NCBI RefSeq assembly: GCF_024054555.1
Contig: NZ_JAMXLY010000006.1
Coordinates: 1 to 64,000 of the forward strand
Length of the DNA stretch: 64,000 bases
Direction: 5' to 3'
Origin: Segatella cerevisiae
GTDB taxonomy: Bacteria; Bacteroidota; Bacteroidia; Bacteroidales; Bacteroidaceae
A program made the position numbers and the translations under genes. Shown here in pieces: positions 1,000-24,752 of the stretch (position 1 is its first letter; the number at the start of each line of letters is the position of its first letter). The notes beneath the pieces are model-generated. The model was not told the origin of the DNA. It saw only the letters and a program-made list of their open reading frames with translations, and did no database searches.

Positions 1000-3594
1000 C
1001 TATAGTTTATCAGCTACTTTGACGAGTTGCTCTCCCAGACCTATAGTATATCCCTGAGAAATGAATACGACACGGTCAAATGTATCAGCAATGATAAACA
1101 TAGGAAGCTGGGTTGTATTCTGTAGTTTCATTTGGGCTGCAATCTGTTTTCGGATGCTTCCGTCCTTGTCGATACCAAATATCGTCTTCTCAGGAAGATT
1201 TCCAAACTCATTCTTCTGGAATTTCCGTGCATCTGCCTCACTTTCAAAGAGAAGTACCAATGGACGACCCCACTTATCAAGTCTGTCCTTCATTTTGGCA
1301 ATATCATGGAGTGCATGGTTTGTAGGTTCATTACCTACTCCAATAACACCCAGGACATAATAGCCACGTCCTGTCTGACTCAGGACACTTACATCCTTGC
1401 CATCTTTCTGGAAAGTAGACTCGCTATTGAAACTACCAATTACTTTAATACCATCAGTAGTCTCACGGATAACCAAATCTACATGAGTAGTCACATCCGG
1501 AAGAATGTGGAAGATTGTATTGCGGGCAAGAACACTGCCATCAGCAAGTCTCTGACCAGAAACCAACAGATAAGTACCCTTATCTAAAGGTGTACCATTC
1601 TTGAAAGTACCTGCCCAGGAAGTACCACCACCCATATCCACTTGTCCTTCATCGAAGTTCAGTAATTGGGTCTTACCGCCCACAATCTTACTGATTGTAA
1701 AATAGCTGTAGTATTTAGGATTATCCAGGTAAGCTGTCGGAGTATAGTTAAGAACAAGAGTACCTGTCTTTGCGGATTGCTGCTTGGCAGAATCAAAATC
1801 GACATCTATCCATTGTCCATCCTTTTTATACTGCACCTTTCCTGTAACGACATCCTTCCTGGCCTCTATATTCAGGCTACGGGCTACATCAACAAAGAAG
1901 ATATCACGACTGCGGCTGTCTGTCAGTCTTGCTTTCCAGACTCCCACAGGTGTCTGAGGAATTTTCATCGCACGCGTATCCGGATTCAGTTTGATATTCG
2001 TACAAATCCATTCTATAAGCAGAGAAGGATCTTTCCGGAATCGTCCGGTATCCTTCTTATCGAAAGCCTTCTCAAAGAACTGTTTGAAGGGAGCAATGAT
2101 GAGTTCGTCTTCTACACGAGGGCAAAGTTGATCACTGCCGGCATTCATGTTATCATCGAGAATAGCCATTGGCATATCGCGAAGGTCCTTGTCGCTCAAG
2201 GTACTCAGGAGACTGATGGAACGATCAAGGCGATCAGAATTCTTCTCCACGAAAGCTTCAATGGTCCTCCAGTTGCCACGAGACTTAACGATATAAGGTA
2301 TTGCTGCAGGATATTTATAACCTTTCAACGTCTCCTCTGTAGGGAAAGTCCTGACATAAGCATTACGTACAGAATCTTCGTAAGCAAAACGACGGTCATT
2401 CTCTGCACGCTGCTGTGGAGTTACTGTAGGGATATTTGCTTTCTCTGGAGGAGGTACAATATTCAATTCCTGACCGGTCAATATCGTGTTGGCATCATAT
2501 TTTAAGGTAATGGTAATCTGTTTATCCTTTCCAAAAGAAGCTTTCGCGTAACCGAATTTACCATTCTTGGATGCCCATACCAGCATATCACCCTTGCCGG
2601 CAGAAAGAAAGGTCACACCATTCTTATCTGTATACTTGGATGCTGCTGTATAGAATTCCGCATAATTATAAATCTTGAAATCTACACGAGCGTCGTATAC
2701 AGGTTTACCTGATTCATCAACAACCTTGAAGTCTGTTCTCGCAGAACTACCATAATTGTCAATCAAATTGATCTCTGTAAAGTTTCCGGTACGGAGCATT
2801 ACTTCCTCAGGGCCCTGATAATCACCAAAAACCTGCGTATGCATCAGCATAGCACGAGATGCAGGAGCATTAAACCATCCCAGGTTCAGAACAGGTTCCG
2901 GCTCACATGCACCCATAAAATACCACTTACCATCAGCCCAGGCTTCTACCCAGGCATGATTGTCATCCGTATGTGCCCAGCGAGGAGTATAAACCTGACG
3001 GGCCGGAATGCCCACGGAACGAAGAGCAGCCACTGTAAATGTGCTTTCCTCACCGCAACGTCCTCTACTTGTAAGAACAGACTGTAAAGGAGAAGACGTA
3101 CGAGCATCAGAAGGTTCGTAAGTTACATGTTCATGACACCAGTGGTTTACCTCGAGTATGGCATCTTTCATTGACATTCCTTTGATACGATCTTTAAGTT
3201 CCTTAAAGAATATCGCACGGGAATTGTCAAGCGGTTCATTATTGACACGCATAGGGACGACAAAATGCCGGAACAAAAGTTCCGGAACTGTCTTTCCCCA
3301 CGGCATCTCCTTATGAGCCTGCAAGGCCAGACGTACATTATTCAAGTGATAAGCCGTGGGATAGTCGGTAGCATCGGCTACAGGCATATAAGCATAGAGA
3401 AACTTCAGGGCTTCCTGCTCCTCCTGCGTAGCATTCAGTTCCTTCACATCATAAAAGCTGATACCAATGAGTTTCATCTTAGCATTGAAAGCAGAATCTA
3501 CTTTCTGTCGATAAGATGTATTGGTGATGAAATGCCGGGCATTTATAGAGAGGCTGACGCCTAACAGCAATAAACTAAAAATTATTTTCCTCAT
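1000..3594 (-). CDS. Secreted transglutaminase-like domain protein
   Basis: A protein of 864 residues with an N-terminal signal peptide (about residues 1-19). A transglutaminase-like (papain-fold) domain covers about 140-245. The catalytic Cys is Cys180 in GRCGEES and the His is His213 in DNHAWVEAW; the third residue is probably an acidic residue near 231. A carboxypeptidase-regulatory-like beta domain follows (about 280-365), and the C-terminal 120 residues resemble a thioredoxin-like fold but lack a CxxC pair. Members of this superfamily include proteases, protein cross-linkers and peptide:N-glycanases, so the reaction cannot be fixed from sequence. It lies 1 base after the second GH29 gene and is the last gene of the PUL, implying co-expression with the glycosidases and a role on the glycoprotein substrate. 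Confidence 0.75.
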   Translation of the reverse strand: MRKIIFSLLLLGVSLSINARHFITNTSYRQKVDSAFNAKMKLIGISFYDVKELNATQEEQEALKFLYAYMPVADATDYPTAYHLNNVRLALQAHKEMPWGKTVPELLFRHFVVPMRVNNEPLDNSRAIFFKELKDRIKGMSMKDAILEVNHWCHEHVTYEPSDARTSSPLQSVLTSRGRCGEESTFTVAALRSVGIPARQVYTPRWAHTDDNHAWVEAWADGKWYFMGACEPEPVLNLGWFNAPASRAMLMHTQVFGDYQGPEEVMLRTGNFTEINLIDNYGSSARTDFKVVDESGKPVYDARVDFKIYNYAEFYTAASKYTDKNGVTFLSAGKGDMLVWASKNGKFGYAKASFGKDKQITITLKYDANTILTGQELNIVPPPEKANIPTVTPQQRAENDRRFAYEDSVRNAYVRTFPTEETLKGYKYPAAIPYIVKSRGNWRTIEAFVEKNSDRLDRSISLLSTLSDKDLRDMPMAILDDNMNAGSDQLCPRVEDELIIAPFKQFFEKAFDKKDTGRFRKDPSLLIEWICTNIKLNPDTRAMKIPQTPVGVWKARLTDSRSRDIFFVDVARSLNIEARKDVVTGKVQYKKDGQWIDVDFDSAKQQSAKTGTLVLNYTPTAYLDNPKYYSYFTISKIVGGKTQLLNFDEGQVDMGGGTSWAGTFKNGTPLDKGTYLLVSGQRLADGSVLARNTIFHILPDVTTHVDLVIRETTDGIKVIGSFNSESTFQKDGKDVSVLSQTGRGYYVLGVIGVGNEPTNHALHDIAKMKDRLDKWGRPLVLLFESEADARKFQKNEFGNLPEKTIFGIDKDGSIRKQIAAQMKLQNTTQLPMFIIADTFDRVVFISQGYTIGLGEQLVKVADKL

Positions 3595-15208: not shown

Positions 15209-17482
15209 TTAATTATTTCCAATCTTGTTCAGTACTATCGGACGGGAACTACGGCTCTTGCCGAAATTCTTGTTCGGCTTCTTTCCCATGACAAACTTCA
15301 GGGTACTGCCCTTGATGATATCATCATAGGTGATGTAGGTCTTACTGTATGGCTTGCCGTTCAGGTAGGCCTTTTCGATGTATTTGTTCTCAGCACTGTT
15401 TCCCACGGCCTCCATCGTAAATATCCTGCCGCCGCGGACCTTCACCTCTGCCCTGTTCAGCACGGGACTGCCGAATACAAACACCCCGTCACAGGGATTC
15501 ACCTGATAGAGTCCCATGGCTGAAAGGACATACCATGCTGACATCTGCCCGCAGTCTTCATTACCGATGACTCCGTCCGGCTGGTCCGTATAGAAATTAT
15601 CCATCACATAACGCACCTTCTCGGCCGTCTTCCACTGCTCACCGGCGTATGCATAAAGGTAAGCAATATGATGGCTCGGCTCATTCCCATGGGCATACTG
15701 GCCGATCAGACCGGTGATATCGCTCTGGGCTTTCGGGCCCATACTGTCATGATTAGAGAACAACTGGTTCAGTTTTTTGGTAAATGGCTTGTCACCTCCG
15801 AACAATTTAATCAATCCGTAGGGATCCTGAGGAGCAAAGAACGTGTACTGCCAGCCGTTACCTTCCGTAAAGTCCCGGACTCCAGCCGTTGCCGGATGAT
15901 ATGGAGTCTTCCAGGAACCGTCTGAGAGTCTGGGACACATAAAATCTATTGAAGAATTGAAGTAGTTCTTATAATAACCGGCCCGTTTTGCAAAGACACC
16001 TGCATCGGCTGTCTTTCCCATCCTGAGGGCCATCGCTGCAATACCCCAGTCATCCACGGCATATTCCATCGCCTTCGATACGGACTCCCCTACCTTGTCG
16101 GCCGGAATAAAGCCGTCTTTCATCACATAGGGTACTCCGTCCTGATCCTGATTGGTTGCCGTTGCCTTCATCGCCTCAAAGGCATCCTCTGCATTGAAGC
16201 CTGTAAAGCCTTTCAGATAGGCATCTGCGATTACGGGTACAGAGCTGTAGCCCGGCATGCAGTTGGTCTCTCCGTTCCATAACGGCCAGATCGGAAGCTT
16301 GTCCTGCTGGCGGTAAATGGAAAGCATCGAGTTGACCAGATGGGGGACCATTTCCGGTTGCACCACCGTCATCAGGGGATTCCACGCGCGGTAGGTGTCC
16401 CACAGGGACAAAGTTGTATAGTTCGACTTCGACGGATCCGTATAGATCATGTCATCCATACCACGGTACTGGCCGTTGACATCACAATATAAGGAGGGAT
16501 CGATCATGGTATGATAAAGGGACGTATAGAAGATACGGCGGCCACGGGCATTGAGGGCCTGAGCCTTCACCCTGCCCAACCGGGCATTCCACTCTGCTCT
16601 GGCGGCATCCTCTGTCTGCCCGAAGTTCCAACCGGACAGCTCGGCCTGCATGTTCTCCCTGGCATTGTCAATGCTGACCGATGACAGGGCGACTTTCAGG
16701 AGGACCTGGCTTGACCGGCCGAAATCGAGGATGCACTTCACAGACTTCGCCTTCAGCTGGAGGCGGTCTGTCGGGGTATTGTCATCGAAGAGCGTGGATT
16801 TCTGTATCTTCGTATTGCTCTTCAGGACAAAATAGACCTTACGGTCGGGGCTCCAGCCATGGTCATAGCGGTAGCCTTCTATGGTATAGTCGTCTACCTT
16901 ACGGGCATAGCAGCTGTAGGCAACGTCGCTGGTACCTTCATGAAGGTCTATCAGTACATAGGAGGGCTTCCCAGCGGGATAGGTATAACGGTGAAAACCT
17001 ACGCGCGCCGTCGCGGTCAGCTCTGCACGGATCTGGTACTTGTCCAGAAGCACTGAATAGTAATAGGGACTGACCACCTCATTCTTATGGGAATAGGTGG
17101 AGGCATAGCCGTTACTGATATCATCCTGTTCTCCCCGCCGGGTATGGATCTCATTCATCGGCATAAGCAGGATGTCGCCCAGGTCACTGCAGCCTGTCCC
17201 GCTCAGGTGGGTATGGGAAAAGCCGATCAGGATGTTGTCGGAATAATGGTAGCCGGAGCACCAGTCCCATCCTTTATATATATTGCTTGGCCCCAATTGG
17301 ACCATTCCGTAGGGTACGCTCGCACCAACGAATACATGGCCGTGGCCTCCCGAGCCGATGTAAGGATCTACATACTGGACATCATCCGATGACGGTACAA
17401 CCGCAGACTGTTGTCTGGCATAGCCTGTCGTAAAGACTAAAAGACAATAAGTTAAAAGAATTAATCTCATCTTTTTCTTCAT
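15209..17482 (-). CDS. GH92 alpha-mannosidase
   Basis: From ATG 17482 the protein has 757 residues. This start gives a compact signal peptide MKKKMRLILLTYCLLVF; an ATG eight codons upstream at 17506 is possible. GH92 hallmarks are YVDPYIGSGGHGHVFVGA near the start, GWDWCSGYHYSD, and the catalytic region GNEDCGQMSAWYVLS about 100 residues from the end. These calcium-dependent exo-enzymes remove alpha-1,2/1,3/1,6-linked mannose from N-glycans or yeast mannan. The gene lies between SusD2 and SusC1. Its base composition stands out: 60% G+C at 15421-15480 and 57% at 16681-16740, against 37% at 13801-13860 and 32% at 18361-18420. This suggests separate acquisition. Confidence 0.93.
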   Translation of the reverse strand: MKKKMRLILLTYCLLVFTTGYARQQSAVVPSSDDVQYVDPYIGSGGHGHVFVGASVPYGMVQLGPSNIYKGWDWCSGYHYSDNILIGFSHTHLSGTGCSDLGDILLMPMNEIHTRRGEQDDISNGYASTYSHKNEVVSPYYYSVLLDKYQIRAELTATARVGFHRYTYPAGKPSYVLIDLHEGTSDVAYSCYARKVDDYTIEGYRYDHGWSPDRKVYFVLKSNTKIQKSTLFDDNTPTDRLQLKAKSVKCILDFGRSSQVLLKVALSSVSIDNARENMQAELSGWNFGQTEDAARAEWNARLGRVKAQALNARGRRIFYTSLYHTMIDPSLYCDVNGQYRGMDDMIYTDPSKSNYTTLSLWDTYRAWNPLMTVVQPEMVPHLVNSMLSIYRQQDKLPIWPLWNGETNCMPGYSSVPVIADAYLKGFTGFNAEDAFEAMKATATNQDQDGVPYVMKDGFIPADKVGESVSKAMEYAVDDWGIAAMALRMGKTADAGVFAKRAGYYKNYFNSSIDFMCPRLSDGSWKTPYHPATAGVRDFTEGNGWQYTFFAPQDPYGLIKLFGGDKPFTKKLNQLFSNHDSMGPKAQSDITGLIGQYAHGNEPSHHIAYLYAYAGEQWKTAEKVRYVMDNFYTDQPDGVIGNEDCGQMSAWYVLSAMGLYQVNPCDGVFVFGSPVLNRAEVKVRGGRIFTMEAVGNSAENKYIEKAYLNGKPYSKTYITYDDIIKGSTLKFVMGKKPNKNFGKSRSSRPIVLNKIGNN

Positions 17483-17637
17483 AGATAATAAATTTATAAT
17501 TTTCATAAACTTTTTATTTTTCTATCAGGATGGAACATCCTTGTCCTGCCAATGAATAGCCAAGATATTGACCCATAAAAATGAGTTCAGCCAATGCTCC
17601 ACGCATTCCATCATTTTACAGGACAAGTGATCTATGA

Positions 17638-19272
17638 TCATTTCCAGCCTGGATTCTGAGTCAAAGAAGGATTTCTCTGCATTTCCGTCATCGGAACAGG
17701 CATTAACAAGGCAAATTCAGGAATAGCTCCCGGCTTTGTAAAGCCCTCCGGCTTGTTCTGAATAATGGCAGTAGTAATCGGCACCCAATTCAACTTACCG
17801 GAGATAGAACTTGACTCAGGATAGAGATGAGTACGGCGAATATCATCCCAAATTCTAAATTCAAGGGGCATCTCGTGTAAGCGCTCTGTAAGAATATCCT
17901 GGATAAGATCATCTCCGGAAGCATTATCATCTGATAAACCAGCCCGCTTGCGAACCTGATTGAGATAAAGACGAGCTTCAACTTCATTGCCTGTACGCGC
18001 ATAGCCTTCTGCTGCAATCAACAGGACCTCAGAGTAGCGCATCATCGGAACATTCAGATCACCGTCATGCCCATTTTTAAGTGCAGACTCATCAAACCAT
18101 AACCAGTTGCCCACATTATTTAACGTATGGGTAAGACTTGTATTATCAGTATAATACCTGAAAAAGAATTGTTTTTCATGACCGCGAATATCATTTGAAG
18201 CATAACTATTGATAATCATGTCACAAGGAAGATAGGCATTATAAAGCACATCTCCTGCAGGATGGAACACAGACGAACCATTAGCGTCTTTCCACTGAAA
18301 CGCATCTGTACCAATTGAACGACAAGCATAAGAATTACCTACGCCTAAATCCGTATAATTGTATTCCTTTGCATAAATAATCTCATCAGAAGACTTTGTT
18401 GTCTTAATCACGTTGAATGCCGATTTCAGATCATCACTGCTTCCACCAGCTTGCTCTAAATGGGCCGATCCACCATCAATTACCTGCTGCGCCATAGCAG
18501 CAGCTTTTGCATAATCGGTGGTGCCACCATTTAAGGGATAGCCGGCTCTTTGCAAATATACCTGAGCTAAAAGAGTTTGTGCCATGGCTTTAGTCACCCT
18601 GCATCCATTTTTATAAAAAGAGACATTAGGAAGTTCATCTCCACTGACTATACTCGTAAGATCCTTCACTATACTGTCATAAACTTCCTTGGCAGGTACA
18701 CGAGGGGTAGACATTCCACTTATTGACGTAAATGGCTTATCTATATAAGGGACATCTCCAAATTCTTTGACCAGATAATAATAATTATAAGCACGGAAGA
18801 ACTTAGCCTGAGCCACATCATTAGCAATCGTAGACTGGCTGAGGACACTCGTCATACGGGGAATATTAGCCAACACAAAATTAGCACGTGATATACCCTT
18901 ATAAAACTCATGCCAAAGTTTAAAGGAGGGACTTTCCGTTCCATTCGCAAACGCTTCAAGAGTAAACGTACAACCTTCTGAAGCAGTTGTCAAAGATCTA
19001 TCTTTACGCTTATCTACATAGAGCCCCGAGATGACACCTCCCCACATCGTTGCTTTAGGAGTCCAGCCGCCATCAACGTCTGTATTATTCAAATAGGGCA
19101 CACCACCATAATATAAAGCATTAACTCCGGATTCAGCATCCGCTTCTGTCTTCCAGAATTTATCAGCTACCTTCTCATCTTTAGGATTTTCATCCAAAAA
19201 ACCATTGCATGAAGAAACCACGGCAATTAACGAAAGCAAACCGAGAGCTAATATATATTTAGACTTTTTCAT
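17638..19272 (-). CDS. SusD/RagB-family outer-membrane lipoprotein (SusD2)
   Basis: A protein of 544 residues with a lipoprotein signal peptide; the lipobox region VVSSC puts the modified Cys at about residue 22. It belongs to the classic RagB/SusD subgroup: FLDENPKDEKVADKFWKTEADA after the Cys, AKFFRAYNYYYLVKEFGDVPY in the first TPR block, and the C-terminal MRYSEVLLIAAEGYARTGN and ERLHEMPLEFRIWDDIRR blocks. It would bind glycan on the cell surface and cap SusC2, whose gene ends 39 bases upstream. It differs clearly from SusD1, so the locus carries two independent binding/transport pairs rather than a recent duplication. Confidence 0.93.
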   Translation of the reverse strand: MKKSKYILALGLLSLIAVVSSCNGFLDENPKDEKVADKFWKTEADAESGVNALYYGGVPYLNNTDVDGGWTPKATMWGGVISGLYVDKRKDRSLTTASEGCTFTLEAFANGTESPSFKLWHEFYKGISRANFVLANIPRMTSVLSQSTIANDVAQAKFFRAYNYYYLVKEFGDVPYIDKPFTSISGMSTPRVPAKEVYDSIVKDLTSIVSGDELPNVSFYKNGCRVTKAMAQTLLAQVYLQRAGYPLNGGTTDYAKAAAMAQQVIDGGSAHLEQAGGSSDDLKSAFNVIKTTKSSDEIIYAKEYNYTDLGVGNSYACRSIGTDAFQWKDANGSSVFHPAGDVLYNAYLPCDMIINSYASNDIRGHEKQFFFRYYTDNTSLTHTLNNVGNWLWFDESALKNGHDGDLNVPMMRYSEVLLIAAEGYARTGNEVEARLYLNQVRKRAGLSDDNASGDDLIQDILTERLHEMPLEFRIWDDIRRTHLYPESSSISGKLNWVPITTAIIQNKPEGFTKPGAIPEFALLMPVPMTEMQRNPSLTQNPGWK

Positions 19273-19311: not shown

Positions 19312-22300
19312 CTAAAACGTTACACCAACACCCAAAGTAAATGTCCGCGCACGCGGATAAGAGAAAAACTGGCGGTTTGTGCCCCAGTTATTATCTCCTA
19401 GACGAGTAGAGTTATCAGGATCATAGCCCAAATAGTCCTTAGAAGTAATAATAAACAAATTATTTAAATTTGCATAAACGCGCAAAGCATGAATCCCCAT
19501 CCTGCTTATTGCACTATTATTAAAAGTATATCCGATTTGTATCAGATTGCAGCGCAGGTAATCACCACTGCATACCCAGTCATCATCGGCCTGATTATTT
19601 GCACCTTGTCCAAAATTGGCCAGACGTATAGCCTGTTCTTTCCCATTAGGATTCGTTGCAGGGTTCCAGGCATCTTTATACAAACGGGTAAGGCCATTAG
19701 TCAGGAAACGGGACACCGTAGAATGATAAAATTCCTGCATAATATCAGCTCCAAGGGAGAACTGAAAATCAGCAGTAAAGTCAAAGCCCTTATAGTTAAA
19801 GGTATTTACAAATGACCCCATCCAGTCAGGGAGTCCATTTCCTATCACCTGGGGATCCTTATAGGTCACCTTTTCTCCTATTATAGACGGGATATTCATA
19901 GTCTTAGCATCCCAGTGAGAAGGAACTCCATCATAGATCCCTGCTCTTTTATAACCATAGAAGGAAGACAATGGTTCGCCTTCGCGGATAAGCATATCAT
20001 AACCTACAAAACCGTCCGTTGTGATCTGACGTTTGCCCGAAAGAGGATCCACGGACGCACCCTCATCAAGTTTTTCCACCTTGTTTTTATTAAATCCCAG
20101 ATTAAGCGTTGATTGCCATTGGAAGTCTTTGCTGTCTATTGGATACGCCGTAATCAAAATATCAAAACCATGGTTGGATACTGCTCCAATATTATCCATG
20201 ATAGAAGAGAATCCAGTAGACTCTGGGACTGGTCGATTAAGTAACAGGTCAGAAGTATATTTATAGTAATAAGAAATATCAAAATTCAATCTGTCTTTTA
20301 GCAATCCAAGTTCAAAACCAAGATCCCATTGTAATGTCTTCTCCCATTTTAATTTATCATTAGGAAGGTTATCCAGATAGGACACTACTTGCAGATTATC
20401 ACCAATAATAGTATTAGACTGACTTATCCGTGCAAGAGAAGCATAAGTACCAATCTCAGAATTACCAGTCAATCCTATTGAAGAATGGAGTTTTAAACGA
20501 CTTATTGGTTTTACATTTTTCAGGAAAGGTTCATTAGAAACCACCCATCCCAAACCTAATGAAGGGAAGAACGCATATTTATTATCTTTACCGAATTTAG
20601 AAGAGCCATCATAACGGCCGGTTACAGTAGCCAGATAAGTGTCATCATAATTATAGGCAAGACGGAAAAAGTAAGAATTCATAGCCCACTTATCGTAGTC
20701 ACTGCCAACACTAGGACGGTTAGTACCAGAACCTAAATTATAAAAGCCATCATAATCATCTATATATTTACTGTCTGAAGCACTAAAATAATCATACTTT
20801 CGCTCTGACCAGGACATCCCGCCCATTACATTAATGTGGTTTTTCCCAAAAGTATTAATATAAGTCAAATACGTCTCCTCCTGCCAGTAAAAAGCATTAG
20901 AACTATTTGCACTTGCAGAACCTTCAGAGTTTTGATTAATCAATGGACGTGGAGTAAATGGGGTATAGCCCTTATAACGATCAATATGATAGTCAACACC
21001 ATATTGGGTCTTCAAATCCAGATTTTTCATTAAGTGAAAGATAAACGCAGCATTTCCGAAAACCTGAGTATGATAAGTATCTGATTGAATTCTCTTCAGC
21101 AATTCTACAGGATTTCCAACACCTTCAGGACTGAAACTTTGATAGCCACTGTTCGGGTTATTCTTGTCATTAAGAATTGCCGTCGTCGTCACATCACTCG
21201 TTTGTGCATAATGTCCATCAATCATTACAGGAAGGAAAGGCAATTGCTCTATCATGGTACGCAGAGCCCCCTGGCCGTAAGGGTTATCTGAAGTACGATT
21301 ACCCCAGGTATGGTTTACCAACAAATTAATGGAAGTTGACAGCCATTTGGTCGGTTTATCATCATAAGCAAACTTTGCGTTCAAACGTTTGTAATAAGAG
21401 TTGAGAAGAATACCTTCCTGATCAGTATAATTCAGGAATGCACCCATAGAATAATCTTTTCCTCCACGCTGGATATTCAACTGATGATTCTGAGAAACTG
21501 ATGTACGGGAAGCCTCATCCTGCCAGTCCGTATTATATATTGGGGTTCCATCTGATTTGAACAAACGAGAATCTGTAAATATTTTCGACAAATCTGTATC
21601 AAAATTCTTCCCTTGCCAAGCATTTGCATTCTCCAAACCTTGCTTGAAAGCAGACATCCATTCCGAGGAATTCATGACCTTCATTTTTCTTGCCATCGAA
21701 CTAATCGAAATTGAGCCCTCATAAGAAATACGAGCCCCCTGTCCCTCTATACCCCGTTTGGTCGTCACCAATATGACGCCGTTTGCGCCACGGGCACCGT
21801 AAATTGCCTCTGCTGAGGCATCCTTCAGTACTTCTATGGACTCAATATCGTTAGGGTTAAGATATTGAAAATCTGACATTACTACGCCATCAACCACATA
21901 TAGAGGATTTGTGGATGCATTAATTGTAGAAATACCACGAATAATAACACGCATTTCTCCTCCAGGTTGTCCTGTATTATTATAGATATTAACACCAGCC
22001 GCTTTACCTTTCAACCCTTCAAGCGCATTGAAATTCTGTCCTTTCAAGATATCATCCCCCTTCGTTTGAGAGATTGATCCCGTAAGATCGGATTTACGCA
22101 TAGTACCATATCCTACAACTACTACCTCATTCAAATCTTTTGAATCCTCATGCATGATTGTATTCTTACCCACACCTGCTATGATCATACTCTTTTGAAA
22201 TCCGACATAAGATATTTCCAAAGTACTTCCGGAAGGGACTCTCAAAGTATAGTGTCCATCAATATCTGTGGCCACACCATTACTTGTTCCTTTTTGAATA

Positions 22301-22719
22301 ACAGATGCTCCAATAATAGGTTCACCATTCACATCAACTATTCTACCTGTAGCTTTAATAATTTGAGAGCTATTAAAATAAGATCTCTGAGGACTTTCCA
22401 TCCTCTGTTCTATCTGCTGCCTTTCTTTCACAATAATAAAATTACCATTAATCTCATAGTCTAGATTCTGGCCTGCCAAAATCTGATTGACAACTTCTTT
22501 TAATGGTCGATTATTAGCATTGACACTGATTTTCTTATTGGTATCCACCTTATTAGATCCAAATACAAAAGAATAACCAGTGGCTCTCTTGAATTTAATA
22601 ACAGCCGTTTTGACAGTTACGTTCTTGACACTAAAAGACACTTGCTGGGCGAAAGTTCCTATGCTGAAACAACATGCCAGACATAAAGCCAATATATGCT
22701 TTCGTGGTAATTTTTTCAT
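19312..22719 (-). CDS. SusC-family TonB-dependent transporter with STN signalling domain (SusC2)
   Basis: A protein of 1135 residues with a signal peptide ending near FAQ (about 24). An STN (secretin/TonB short N-terminal) domain covers about 27-95, a carboxypeptidase-regulatory-like domain about 120-200, then DLNEVVVVGYGTMRKSDLTGS, the plug (about 200-320, with LYVVDGVVMSDF and VLKDASAEAIYGARG), and the barrel. The STN domain marks a transducer: on ligand uptake it contacts the periplasmic part of FecR, which frees the ECF sigma. Both partners are the next two genes upstream. It pairs with SusD2 and is probably autoregulated by that sigma. The 276-bp gap before it carries a plus-strand small-RNA unit. 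Confidence 0.95.
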   Translation of the reverse strand: MKKLPRKHILALCLACCFSIGTFAQQVSFSVKNVTVKTAVIKFKRATGYSFVFGSNKVDTNKKISVNANNRPLKEVVNQILAGQNLDYEINGNFIIVKERQQIEQRMESPQRSYFNSSQIIKATGRIVDVNGEPIIGASVIQKGTSNGVATDIDGHYTLRVPSGSTLEISYVGFQKSMIIAGVGKNTIMHEDSKDLNEVVVVGYGTMRKSDLTGSISQTKGDDILKGQNFNALEGLKGKAAGVNIYNNTGQPGGEMRVIIRGISTINASTNPLYVVDGVVMSDFQYLNPNDIESIEVLKDASAEAIYGARGANGVILVTTKRGIEGQGARISYEGSISISSMARKMKVMNSSEWMSAFKQGLENANAWQGKNFDTDLSKIFTDSRLFKSDGTPIYNTDWQDEASRTSVSQNHQLNIQRGGKDYSMGAFLNYTDQEGILLNSYYKRLNAKFAYDDKPTKWLSTSINLLVNHTWGNRTSDNPYGQGALRTMIEQLPFLPVMIDGHYAQTSDVTTTAILNDKNNPNSGYQSFSPEGVGNPVELLKRIQSDTYHTQVFGNAAFIFHLMKNLDLKTQYGVDYHIDRYKGYTPFTPRPLINQNSEGSASANSSNAFYWQEETYLTYINTFGKNHINVMGGMSWSERKYDYFSASDSKYIDDYDGFYNLGSGTNRPSVGSDYDKWAMNSYFFRLAYNYDDTYLATVTGRYDGSSKFGKDNKYAFFPSLGLGWVVSNEPFLKNVKPISRLKLHSSIGLTGNSEIGTYASLARISQSNTIIGDNLQVVSYLDNLPNDKLKWEKTLQWDLGFELGLLKDRLNFDISYYYKYTSDLLLNRPVPESTGFSSIMDNIGAVSNHGFDILITAYPIDSKDFQWQSTLNLGFNKNKVEKLDEGASVDPLSGKRQITTDGFVGYDMLIREGEPLSSFYGYKRAGIYDGVPSHWDAKTMNIPSIIGEKVTYKDPQVIGNGLPDWMGSFVNTFNYKGFDFTADFQFSLGADIMQEFYHSTVSRFLTNGLTRLYKDAWNPATNPNGKEQAIRLANFGQGANNQADDDWVCSGDYLRCNLIQIGYTFNNSAISRMGIHALRVYANLNNLFIITSKDYLGYDPDNSTRLGDNNWGTNRQFFSYPRARTFTLGVGVTF

Positions 22720-22752
22720 AAAATATTAATTTGTGTTTAATTAGATATTAGA

Positions 22753-22771
22753 TTCGATATTTTGTATCGAA
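22753..22771. promoter_or_regulatory. Dyad symmetry in the susC2 leader
   Basis: TTCGATA-ttttg-TATCGAA is a perfect 7-bp inverted repeat 34 nt upstream of the susC2 ATG. It may be a leader hairpin controlling translation or a binding site. Confidence 0.35.
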
Positions 22772-22840
22772 AATCTATATAAAATGTTAATTATGAGTAG
22801 TTCTAAAGTTGGTTCTGATAATTGATATGAATTAATTTCA

Positions 22841-22849
22841 TATCTTTGC
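22841..22849 (+). promoter_or_regulatory. Promoter (-7 element) of the PUL small RNA
   Basis: TATCTTTGC on the plus strand is an exact match to TAnnTTTGC. It points away from susC2 towards fecR, opposite to all PUL genes, and a terminator lies about 55-80 nt downstream. The -33 element is weak. Confidence 0.6.
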
Positions 22850-22855
22850 AACATT

Positions 22856-22931
22856 AGAATTCTTATTAGAAGAATATGAAGCTAATTTGGATTTTGATTC
22901 TTAGGAGGATATTGGAGTATCCTCCTTTTTA
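22856..22931 (+). ncRNA. Predicted DonS-like antisense small RNA between fecR and susC2
   Basis: A plus-strand unit lies in the fecR-susC2 gap: a Bacteroidota promoter at 22841-22849, a 5' hairpin ATTCTT-attag-AAGAAT (about 22859-22875), and an intrinsic terminator AGGAGGATA-ttggag-TATCCTCCT (22903-22926) followed by TTTTATTT. The predicted transcript is about 75 nt and antisense to the leader of susC2. In Bacteroides, small antisense RNAs of the DonS class sit in this very position, between the anti-sigma gene and susC, and repress the PUL. The ends are estimates. A 25-codon frame inside overlaps the terminator and is not considered real. Confidence 0.6.
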
Positions 22932-22995
22932 TTTCTCTTTCAACGTGATTTAACTGATTTTCTTCATAGGCACTTGTCTTTTTAATGGTTATGGG

Positions 22996-24012
22996 TCAAT
23001 ATATAACATATTTATCTTTCATACGCTTATATTTGATTAAGTCGGTACTAGACATCACTTCCAAAATCTTATTTAAGGTATCCTCTTTCCGATTGAAGAA
23101 TCCGTAGAAACGATGATCTCTAACGCTATCAGCCACTCCAATATTAATGCCATAACTACGACTGAGTTGCCTTGCAATATCATCGATACGCATATTGATG
23201 AAATTCAGGTCATTCATAGCCTGAGCAGAACCCTCATCGACATCATTTTTCATCTTCAAGACTTTTCCGGTAAGCTTATTTAAGGTCAGACATTCTCCGG
23301 GAGCCATGCGAATAGGTTTCGATGGATGAATTTCATTATAAATTTCCACACTTCCATGAAACAAACTCACACAAGCTTGTTCGTCATCTCTATAGTTCCG
23401 GACATTGAATTCTGTACCTAAATCCTTAAGAATAAGTCCCCTTGTCTTGATAATAAAAGGAAGTTTAACACTATGACATACCTTGAAATAACCTTCACCG
23501 GTAAGAGTCAATTTTCGATCTACAATACCATAACCTTGTGAATAACTCAGCCGGGAACCGGAATTAAGCCGCACTTTAGTCCCATCGGGAAGGGTAAGAT
23601 TCAGTTGGGATCCATCAGGGGCTTCCATGACAACTTCTGCAAATTGCCTATTAACTTTATTATGGGCTAAATAATAGGTAAAAATTGGAAGGAAAATTAA
23701 TAATATAATAGCTGCAATATAAATTATTCTTTTCCAAGATGCAGAAACAAGAACAACAGGACGTATTTTTCTATCGGATTGAGATTTTGATATATGTTTA
23801 TAAAAGCGTTTTATTGCTAACTCTATATTATAATTTGTTCGATCATTAAGTACCGTTTGTGAAAAAAATATTTCAAAAAGATCACGAACATAGCATCTAT
23901 TGGCTTCGCTCTGATGAGCCCACGACTCCAGTTGCGAAAGTTCTTCTTTTGTAATACTTCCCTTTACAAAAGCATTTGCAATATCTTCTATATTCTGATC
24001 TATGTTCTTCAT
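22996..24012 (-). CDS. FecR-family anti-sigma factor
   Basis: A protein of 338 residues. The cytoplasmic N-terminal region (1-85) would bind the sigma factor. One membrane segment lies at about 90-112 (RIIYIAAIILLIFLPIFTYY). The periplasmic FecR domain spans about 125-235 (LPDGTKVRLNSGSRLSY, LTGEGYFKV, DLGTEFNVRNY), and the C-terminal DUF4974 domain (about 265-338) would receive the signal from the STN domain of SusC2. It holds the ECF sigma inactive until SusC2 is occupied. It lies 96 bases after the sigma gene and is probably co-transcribed with it. There is no sign of truncation. Confidence 0.93.
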   Translation of the reverse strand: MKNIDQNIEDIANAFVKGSITKEELSQLESWAHQSEANRCYVRDLFEIFFSQTVLNDRTNYNIELAIKRFYKHISKSQSDRKIRPVVLVSASWKRIIYIAAIILLIFLPIFTYYLAHNKVNRQFAEVVMEAPDGSQLNLTLPDGTKVRLNSGSRLSYSQGYGIVDRKLTLTGEGYFKVCHSVKLPFIIKTRGLILKDLGTEFNVRNYRDDEQACVSLFHGSVEIYNEIHPSKPIRMAPGECLTLNKLTGKVLKMKNDVDEGSAQAMNDLNFINMRIDDIARQLSRSYGINIGVADSVRDHRFYGFFNRKEDTLNKILEVMSSTDLIKYKRMKDKYVIY

Positions 24013-24108: not shown

Positions 24109-24705
24109 TTACCTCTTAGTATGATTAAGAAGAAATAATATTAAAATAATATATGGAGTAATGCCCTTTGCCAGTTGTTTAATCGCATTTTTGATATGGT
24201 ATTTGACCGTATTAACCGAAATTCCCAAACAATCGGCAATCTCCGCATATTTTTTACCTTCAAAACGGCTCATTTGAAAAACCTTCTTACACTCATCCGG
24301 TAAGTCATTGATCGCATCCATCAACTGTTTTTCCATTTCTTTCTCGATAATCCAGCCTATAGGATGATCCTCATCAAAAAGATAATCATTAAATTGAAGA
24401 AACTCCGAGCTTAAGCTTACAGATTTCATGGCAGACTGATAGGCAGAAGAACTAATAGCCTTTAAGCTATTATTGCGAACTGCACGAATCAGGTATGAAC
24501 GGAGAGATAGGATCTCTAATGTATCACGAGTATCCCAAATATGAAAGAGCACATCATCAACTACCTCTTCTGCAATTTCTGAATTGTGAAGCAGTTGGGC
24601 AGCAAAACGACATAGCAATTCATAATACTTGTGATAAAGTTGTTCAAATGCTTTTTCGTCACCTTGTCTGATACGACTTAATATTAAAAAATCGGTTTTA
24701 TCCAT
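24109..24705 (-). CDS. ECF sigma factor controlling the PUL
   Basis: A protein of 198 residues of the Bacteroidota RNA polymerase sigma-70 (ECF) type. Region 2 is at about 15-80 (KAFEQLYHKYYELLCRFA, VDDVLFHIWDTR) and region 4 at about 128-180 (LPDECKKVFQMSRFEGKKYAEIADCLGIS, helix-turn-helix). The last 20 residues are strongly hydrophobic (ITPYIILILFLL), a recurring feature of this subfamily. It would direct transcription of susC2 and downstream genes when released by FecR. A TACTTTTG element 40 bases upstream (24745-24752, minus strand) is a likely promoter for the regulatory pair. Confidence 0.93.
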   Translation of the reverse strand: MDKTDFLILSRIRQGDEKAFEQLYHKYYELLCRFAAQLLHNSEIAEEVVDDVLFHIWDTRDTLEILSLRSYLIRAVRNNSLKAISSSAYQSAMKSVSLSSEFLQFNDYLFDEDHPIGWIIEKEMEKQLMDAINDLPDECKKVFQMSRFEGKKYAEIADCLGISVNTVKYHIKNAIKQLAKGITPYIILILFLLNHTKR

Positions 24706-24744: not shown

Positions 24745-24752
24745 CAAAAGTA
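24745..24752 (-). promoter_or_regulatory. Possible -7 element for the sigma-fecR genes
   Basis: TACTTTTG matches TAnnTTTG, 40 nt upstream of the sigma ATG. The -33 element is unclear. Confidence 0.4.

Follow-up and report, generated by a model that had tools for sequence, protein, structure and literature searches.

PULs that carry DonS-like antisense RNAs typically encode an ECF sigma factor, a FecR protein and a SusC homologue bearing an STN domain. The class is associated with PULs for host glycans derived from the mucosa, and the don PUL itself carries N-glycan-type enzymes. DonS has been reported to reduce susC expression, and the same report quotes a length of 78–128 nt for the class and gives TAnnTTTG as the consensus for the primary sigma factor of Bacteroidetes (PMC7366714). 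As described for Bacteroides, the cis-antisense RNAs of this class are short, lie upstream of a susC homologue and diverge from it, and have a promoter of the primary-sigma type and a terminator of their own. Ten PUL antisense RNAs were reported for B. thetaiotaomicron and later 32, and five and two further candidates are reported as seen on Northern blots (PMC7366714, PMC10994844). Across the 32 RNAs, RNA-PUL pairs are reported to correlate inversely but also positively (PMC10994844), and some antisense starts are described as possibly spurious (PMC7366714).

Two additional lines of work in B. thetaiotaomicron are relevant here. First, 5′ RACE in an anti-sigma mutant is reported to place a 5′ end of PUL24 susC 291 nt upstream of the gene, which falls inside the end of the anti-sigma gene at a site without a housekeeping promoter (PMC11501099). 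Second, the small RNAs FopS and GibS are reported to repress susC mRNAs. FopS RNAs act in trans, are encoded in multiple copies, and share a conserved 5′ seed; they have a primary-sigma promoter and give bands of ~65 and ~70 nt, and 4 of the 14 fall in the antisense class (PMC11697453). At the level of titles and abstracts, in a search whose coverage left most subscription papers outside, we found no report of PUL antisense RNAs in Prevotella.

A predicted antisense RNA between fecR and susC

We examined a PUL located within a 64,000-nucleotide stretch of DNA (hereafter the window) from a genome of the genus group Prevotella in the wide sense, and thus from a lineage outside Bacteroides, as an earlier note on this DNA had stated. 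The relevant features are as follows.

24109–24705, minus strand: ECF sigma factor gene
22996–24012, minus strand: gene for a FecR-type anti-sigma factor (fecR)
22720–22995, strand not assigned: fecR-susC gap of 276 bp, whose minus strand would form the susC leader by analogy with Bacteroides PUL24 (PMC11501099)
22841–22848, plus strand: −7 promoter element TATCTTTG, read directly, of the type (TAnnTTTG) used by the primary sigma factor of Bacteroidetes
22853–22932, plus strand: predicted antisense small RNA, with approximate ends and a 5′ end placed from the −7 element
22853–22898, plus strand: 5′ hairpin of the predicted RNA, from folding
22903–22935, plus strand: intrinsic terminator, with a stem-loop at 22903–22926 and a T-rich tail at 22927–22935
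19312–22719, minus strand: susC homologue with an STN domain, the presumed target
17638–19272, minus strand: susD homologue
15209–17506, minus strand: GH92 glycosidase gene

The plus strand of the gap reads TATCTTTGC at positions 22841–22849, and the terminator-like site at 22903–22926 has the form AGGAGGATAT-TGGA-GTATCCTCCT, followed by the T-rich tail. Direct reading and folding therefore confirm what the earlier note had described on this strand inside the 276-bp gap, namely an exact promoter, a 5′ hairpin, and a terminator with a T-run. Its description of a perfect 9-bp terminator stem is accurate for the Watson–Crick pairs, whereas the stem comprises 10 pairs once a G-U pair is counted. 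The element was also said to lie opposite to every PUL gene, and indeed all the PUL genes that we identified, from 24109–24705 down to 1000–3594, are on the minus strand.

Judging from the positions of the promoter and terminator, the predicted RNA is ~75–80 nt long, compared to the 78–128 nt quoted for the DonS class (PMC7366714), although the ends of the RNA examined herein are predictions. At the sequence level, two features of the DonS class are present, in that the element has its own promoter and intrinsic terminator and diverges from a susC homologue. The region from 22851 to 22935 folds with a predicted energy of −23.9 kcal/mol (z −2.86), and 2 of 200 shuffled sequences folded equally well. 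No TTTG that could serve as the −33 part of the promoter is located within 35 nt upstream of the −7 element. The TATCTTTG promoter is also absent from the output of a simple sigma-70 scan, which is expected because it is of another promoter type.

The gene content of the locus likewise matches that of PULs associated with DonS-like RNAs, with an ECF sigma factor, FecR, and an STN-bearing SusC all present. Based on Pfam matches, the operon continues after SusD and GH92 with a second SusC/SusD pair, GH18, GH20, two alpha-fucosidases, and a transglutaminase-like protein; the GH18 protein also has a weaker EndoS-like match. The combination of GH92, GH18, GH20, and two alpha-fucosidases is consistent with a PUL whose putative substrate is host N-glycan, and it resembles the N-glycan-type enzyme set of the don PUL. 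On the minus strand, no TAnnTTTG sequence is found between boxes at 20854 and 24752. This fits a sigma-specific promoter for susC, of which we identified no example. The box at 24752 on the minus strand, TACTTTTG, precedes the ECF sigma gene by 47 nt and is a candidate housekeeping promoter for the sigma and fecR genes.

Recurrence of the arrangement among relatives

A TAnnTTTG element followed by a terminator at a distance of 50–160 nt appeared in 3 of 400 dinucleotide shuffles of the gap (with 20 nt on either side included), and in none of the 400 did the terminator of such a pair reach −13 kcal/mol. Both strands of the 64-kb window together contain 68 TAnnTTTG boxes and 28 terminators, yet the single pair formed among them is that in the fecR-susC gap. 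In a first survey of gaps of 90–600 nt, among the matches listed, the pair was present antisense to susC in 16 of 50 gaps and in the sense orientation in none, whereas 0.1 were expected from 30 shuffles per gap; near copies, such as L084 and L085, were retained in the 50. The antisense promoter-terminator element is thus probably real and of a known class.

A broader set of loci was collected by FecR searches in three overlapping groups (100 relatives, 398 genomes from the genus group, and 201 from the family), with up to 30 loci taken per search. To these were added 20 stretches, picked either for their FecR score or because they belong to the genome of the window, and a named set of 25 loci. 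Entries in which fecR followed by susC was not complete (13 in the first survey and three in the second: L115, L121, and L134) do not contribute, and L001, L002, L004, and L005 were dropped because they duplicate other loci of the set. The result is 103 different fecR-susC gaps from the same taxonomic order, in loci chosen by FecR similarity among the matches listed. Gaps longer than 600 nt, which were skipped in the first survey, form a separate class (n = 3) among the 103.

Within this set, and again among the matches listed, the pair occurs antisense to susC in 19 of the 103 gaps and in the sense orientation within the gap in none. The proposal of the earlier note that the RNA is DonS-like is supported by its position and by this recurrence. 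Carriers are unevenly distributed by gap length: the antisense pair is present in 0/43 gaps shorter than 90 nt, 2/12 gaps of 90–149 nt, 17/45 gaps of 150–600 nt, and 0/3 longer gaps (among the matches listed). The absence from the 43 shortest gaps means that gap length alone hints at whether a PUL may have an antisense layer. Expressed as density, 19.7 kb of gap hold 21 matches to the pair, whereas the rest of these loci (427 kb, both strands) hold 10. The strict gap rule undercounts, since the antisense pair of L095 begins 43 nt inside susC and was scored as outside the gap. The same rule excluded a sense-strand pair in L097 that begins inside the end of fecR and stops 51 nt into the gap, and this case counts against the tally of no sense pairs.

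In 13 of the 19 carriers, the −7 element and the end of the terminator stem are 79–92 nt apart, and in the other six they are 95–136 nt apart. The window RNA begins farther from the susC start codon than those of the other carriers: its predicted start is ~130 nt away, and its −7 element lies at 121, versus −1 to 97 in the other 18. This placement, and its occurrence in Prevotella, distinguish it from the described DonS class, and the likeness to DonS is one of arrangement and position. Seven of the 19 carriers belong to the window's genus group and ten are other Bacteroidaceae (including L127, a Phocaeicola), and the remaining two are MAGs of Tannerella and Tidjanibacter. The window's own genome carries a second antisense pair in another PUL (contig C47, L081). 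Two more fecR-susC gaps outside the 103, L182 and L183, both have an antisense pair; they were picked through a match to a terminator model (see below) and so are not an unbiased sample.

Based on these data, the window RNA is probably a member of the already known class of PUL antisense RNAs, whose arrangement recurs in relatives, some of them outside Bacteroides. If true, a form of PUL control described for Bacteroides would extend to Prevotella, Tannerella, and Tidjanibacter genomes. Moreover, candidates could be listed by a simple sequence rule: a long gap between fecR and susC that holds, antisense to susC, a TAnnTTTG element together with a terminator.

When the whole gap was compared as DNA with the 100 relatives, only short matches covering 28–49 query bases were found outside the window itself. 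One is a 34-nt stretch at the susC-proximal end of the gap with 85% identity to positions 1479–1512 of L009 (G000:C60), which sits just upstream of another gene in the window's own genome; by eye, the start of this gene resembles that of SusC. Another is a 28-nt stretch around the −7 element of the RNA with 93% identity to positions 1501–1528 of L006 (G031:C6), a site that belongs to a different genome of the genus and precedes a gene by ~20 nt.

Possible mode of action

We favor, with a probability of roughly 0.66, the reading that a DonS-like cis-antisense RNA made from the plus strand damps a host-glycan-type PUL in Prevotella; its transcription, its overlap with the mRNA, the repression, and the trigger are what we infer from the arrangement. 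In this reading, the plus strand of the fecR-susC gap would give a stand-alone transcript of ~75–80 nt that has a promoter for the primary sigma factor and a terminator of its own. For the sigma-dependent mRNA of susC, a start at the 3′ end of fecR or within that end is probable. By analogy with PUL24, the susC leader in the window would span the whole gap, and if a PUL24-like start holds, then this long leader would cover the small RNA end to end and the two RNAs would be complementary along the full length of the smaller one. In the absence of the glycan, or with a better sugar available, the RNA would lower expression of susC and of the downstream susD and GH92 genes. Once the SusC-FecR-sigma cascade fires, sense transcription would overwhelm the antisense RNA. 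Such an RNA would add a third layer of control to SusC-FecR-sigma regulation, as the earlier note had suggested.

Given that DonS is reported to lower susC expression, that the RNA-PUL correlations reported are mixed, and that the two transcripts are predicted to overlap, we infer that repression through pairing, through interference, or through both is the best reading of how the RNA might act. The RNA bodies between promoter and terminator are hardly alike across loci, whereas the promoter, the length, and the terminator recur. Dissimilar bodies suit cis-antisense RNAs, yet conservation is thereby lost as an argument for a sequence-specific function. One possibility is that transcription itself is what matters, such that polymerases from the plus-strand promoter collide with or block those from the susC promoter while the sequence of the RNA is irrelevant. 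The recurrence of everything but the body would agree with this, and the plus-strand promoter does point toward the presumed susC start. However, perfect pairing of a cis-antisense RNA with the locus that encodes it is possible for any sequence, and so the lack of conservation does not exclude pairing. Furthermore, collision does not need a short, well-terminated RNA that stops before the presumed susC start. We regard interference by transcription alone as doubtful.

Among the recurring parts, the terminator was modeled by covariance analysis. The model shows a well-conserved stem and 32 compensatory cells, but this support is partly circular because the sequences had been chosen for their hairpin and laid out around its loop. 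(An earlier model with six pairs, built on a poorer alignment, was discarded.) In whole genomes, the model also matches many places away from fecR and susC. Among 30 loci taken from a family search with it, those in fecR-susC gaps either belonged to the training set or nearly duplicated one of its members. Two further listed matches located beside FecR matches proved to be the fecR-susC gaps with antisense pairs mentioned above (L182 and L183). Because the terminator model matches elsewhere, the terminator is not class-specific, and we do not claim a homologous RNA family.

Patchy distribution and other readings

The nearest sister PULs on the FecR tree, among the matches listed (L119, L041, and L044), have gaps of 68–84 nt without the element. 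It is likewise missing from the sister PULs L040 and L011 (gaps of 37 and 34 nt) and L043 (a 186-nt gap). Conservation of promoter and terminator, which the earlier note had made a test of its proposal, is therefore seen in farther relatives, while the sister PULs nearest to that of the window lack it. The FecR tree comprises 71 rows, 16 of them carriers; on it, the presence label needs 13 changes, of which at least 8 are forced, and carriers do not cluster beyond chance (72 of 500 shuffles were as low). An antisense terminator without a matching TAnnTTTG element in the gap is found in L053, L095, L018, L019, L031, and L025, and also in L124. A single clade includes the full pair (L013 and L056), a terminator only (L053), and a 39-nt gap (L051). 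The closely related PULs L051, L052, L053, L056, and L013, which run from a full antisense pair through a terminator only to the 39-nt gap, possibly represent a natural series of loss. We read the patchy presence as frequent loss or turnover, on a tree that cannot separate gain from loss.

An alternative is that the pairs are spurious or decayed, without function, and simply kept in some PULs and lost in others. Patchiness on the FecR tree and half-present states, such as terminator-only gaps and the 39-nt gap of L051, agree with this explanation, as does the reported spurious antisense initiation (PMC7366714). It is difficult to reconcile with 16 antisense pairs in 50 gaps and no sense pairs among the matches listed, with the near-constant length, and with the presence of two cases in the window's genome. 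Thus, we consider a functionless pair unlikely.

A trans-acting RNA similar to FopS and GibS, binding to the start regions of other susC mRNAs, is highly improbable. FopS is comparable in size and is partly classed as antisense (PMC11697453), but the loci examined herein have no shared 5′ seed, in contrast to the conserved 5′ end of FopS. In addition, the gap has no Rfam match at the gathering score, and no family of this kind, FopS included, is among its weak matches (Rfam 15 may not include FopS). One of the weak matches is to RteR (RF04181), a Bacteroides small RNA of similar length, which scores 18.5 bits (E 1.3) where the gathering cut-off is 72. The chance that the plus-strand transcript codes for a small protein is practically negligible: the window RNA has an ATG frame of 20 codons that stays open to the end of the stretch, and 11 of 15 other transcripts checked have one of at least 8 codons, but the frames vary in place, length, and sequence between loci and are absent from 4 of 16 transcripts, and in 10 of the 12 with such a frame, frames continue through the terminator. 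Several terminator hairpins look alike by eye in one reading frame, and a conserved peptide across the terminator was rejected as coding because a stop directly precedes that frame in the window.

Returning to the DonS-like cis-antisense RNA as the preferred reading, its presumed target strand has features of its own. A tiny ORF encoding MKKIS is located at 22950–22967 on the minus strand, just downstream of fecR. On the strand of susC, ATGAA occurs at +15 to +65 after the fecR stop in 25 of 51 unique gaps of 130–600 nt, compared to a mean of 6.0 and a maximum of 12 in 200 shuffles, in a count that includes near copies among the 51 and ignores relatedness. The peptides of these ORFs are not conserved, and some are only one or two codons long. 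In L051, the matching ATGAA block is the start of susC itself, while in L053 it opens a 9-codon ORF and the susC start comes later. The tiny ORF could represent either a relic start or an ORF of the leader, and it suggests that sense transcripts cross the fecR-susC region. We speculate that the susC leader is a two-part switch, in which a tiny translated ORF of a few codons after fecR and the antisense RNA directly downstream of it jointly gate sense transcription or translation into susC, and that gains and losses within the order affect the cassette as a whole, but we consider this quite unlikely.

A perfect 7-bp inverted repeat, TTCGATA-TTTTG-TATCGAA, is also present at 22753–22771, ~34–52 nt upstream of susC, and is possibly an operator. 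Its pattern, with a spacer of 3–6 nt, is found at only one other site in the genome (G000:C37:10104-10122).
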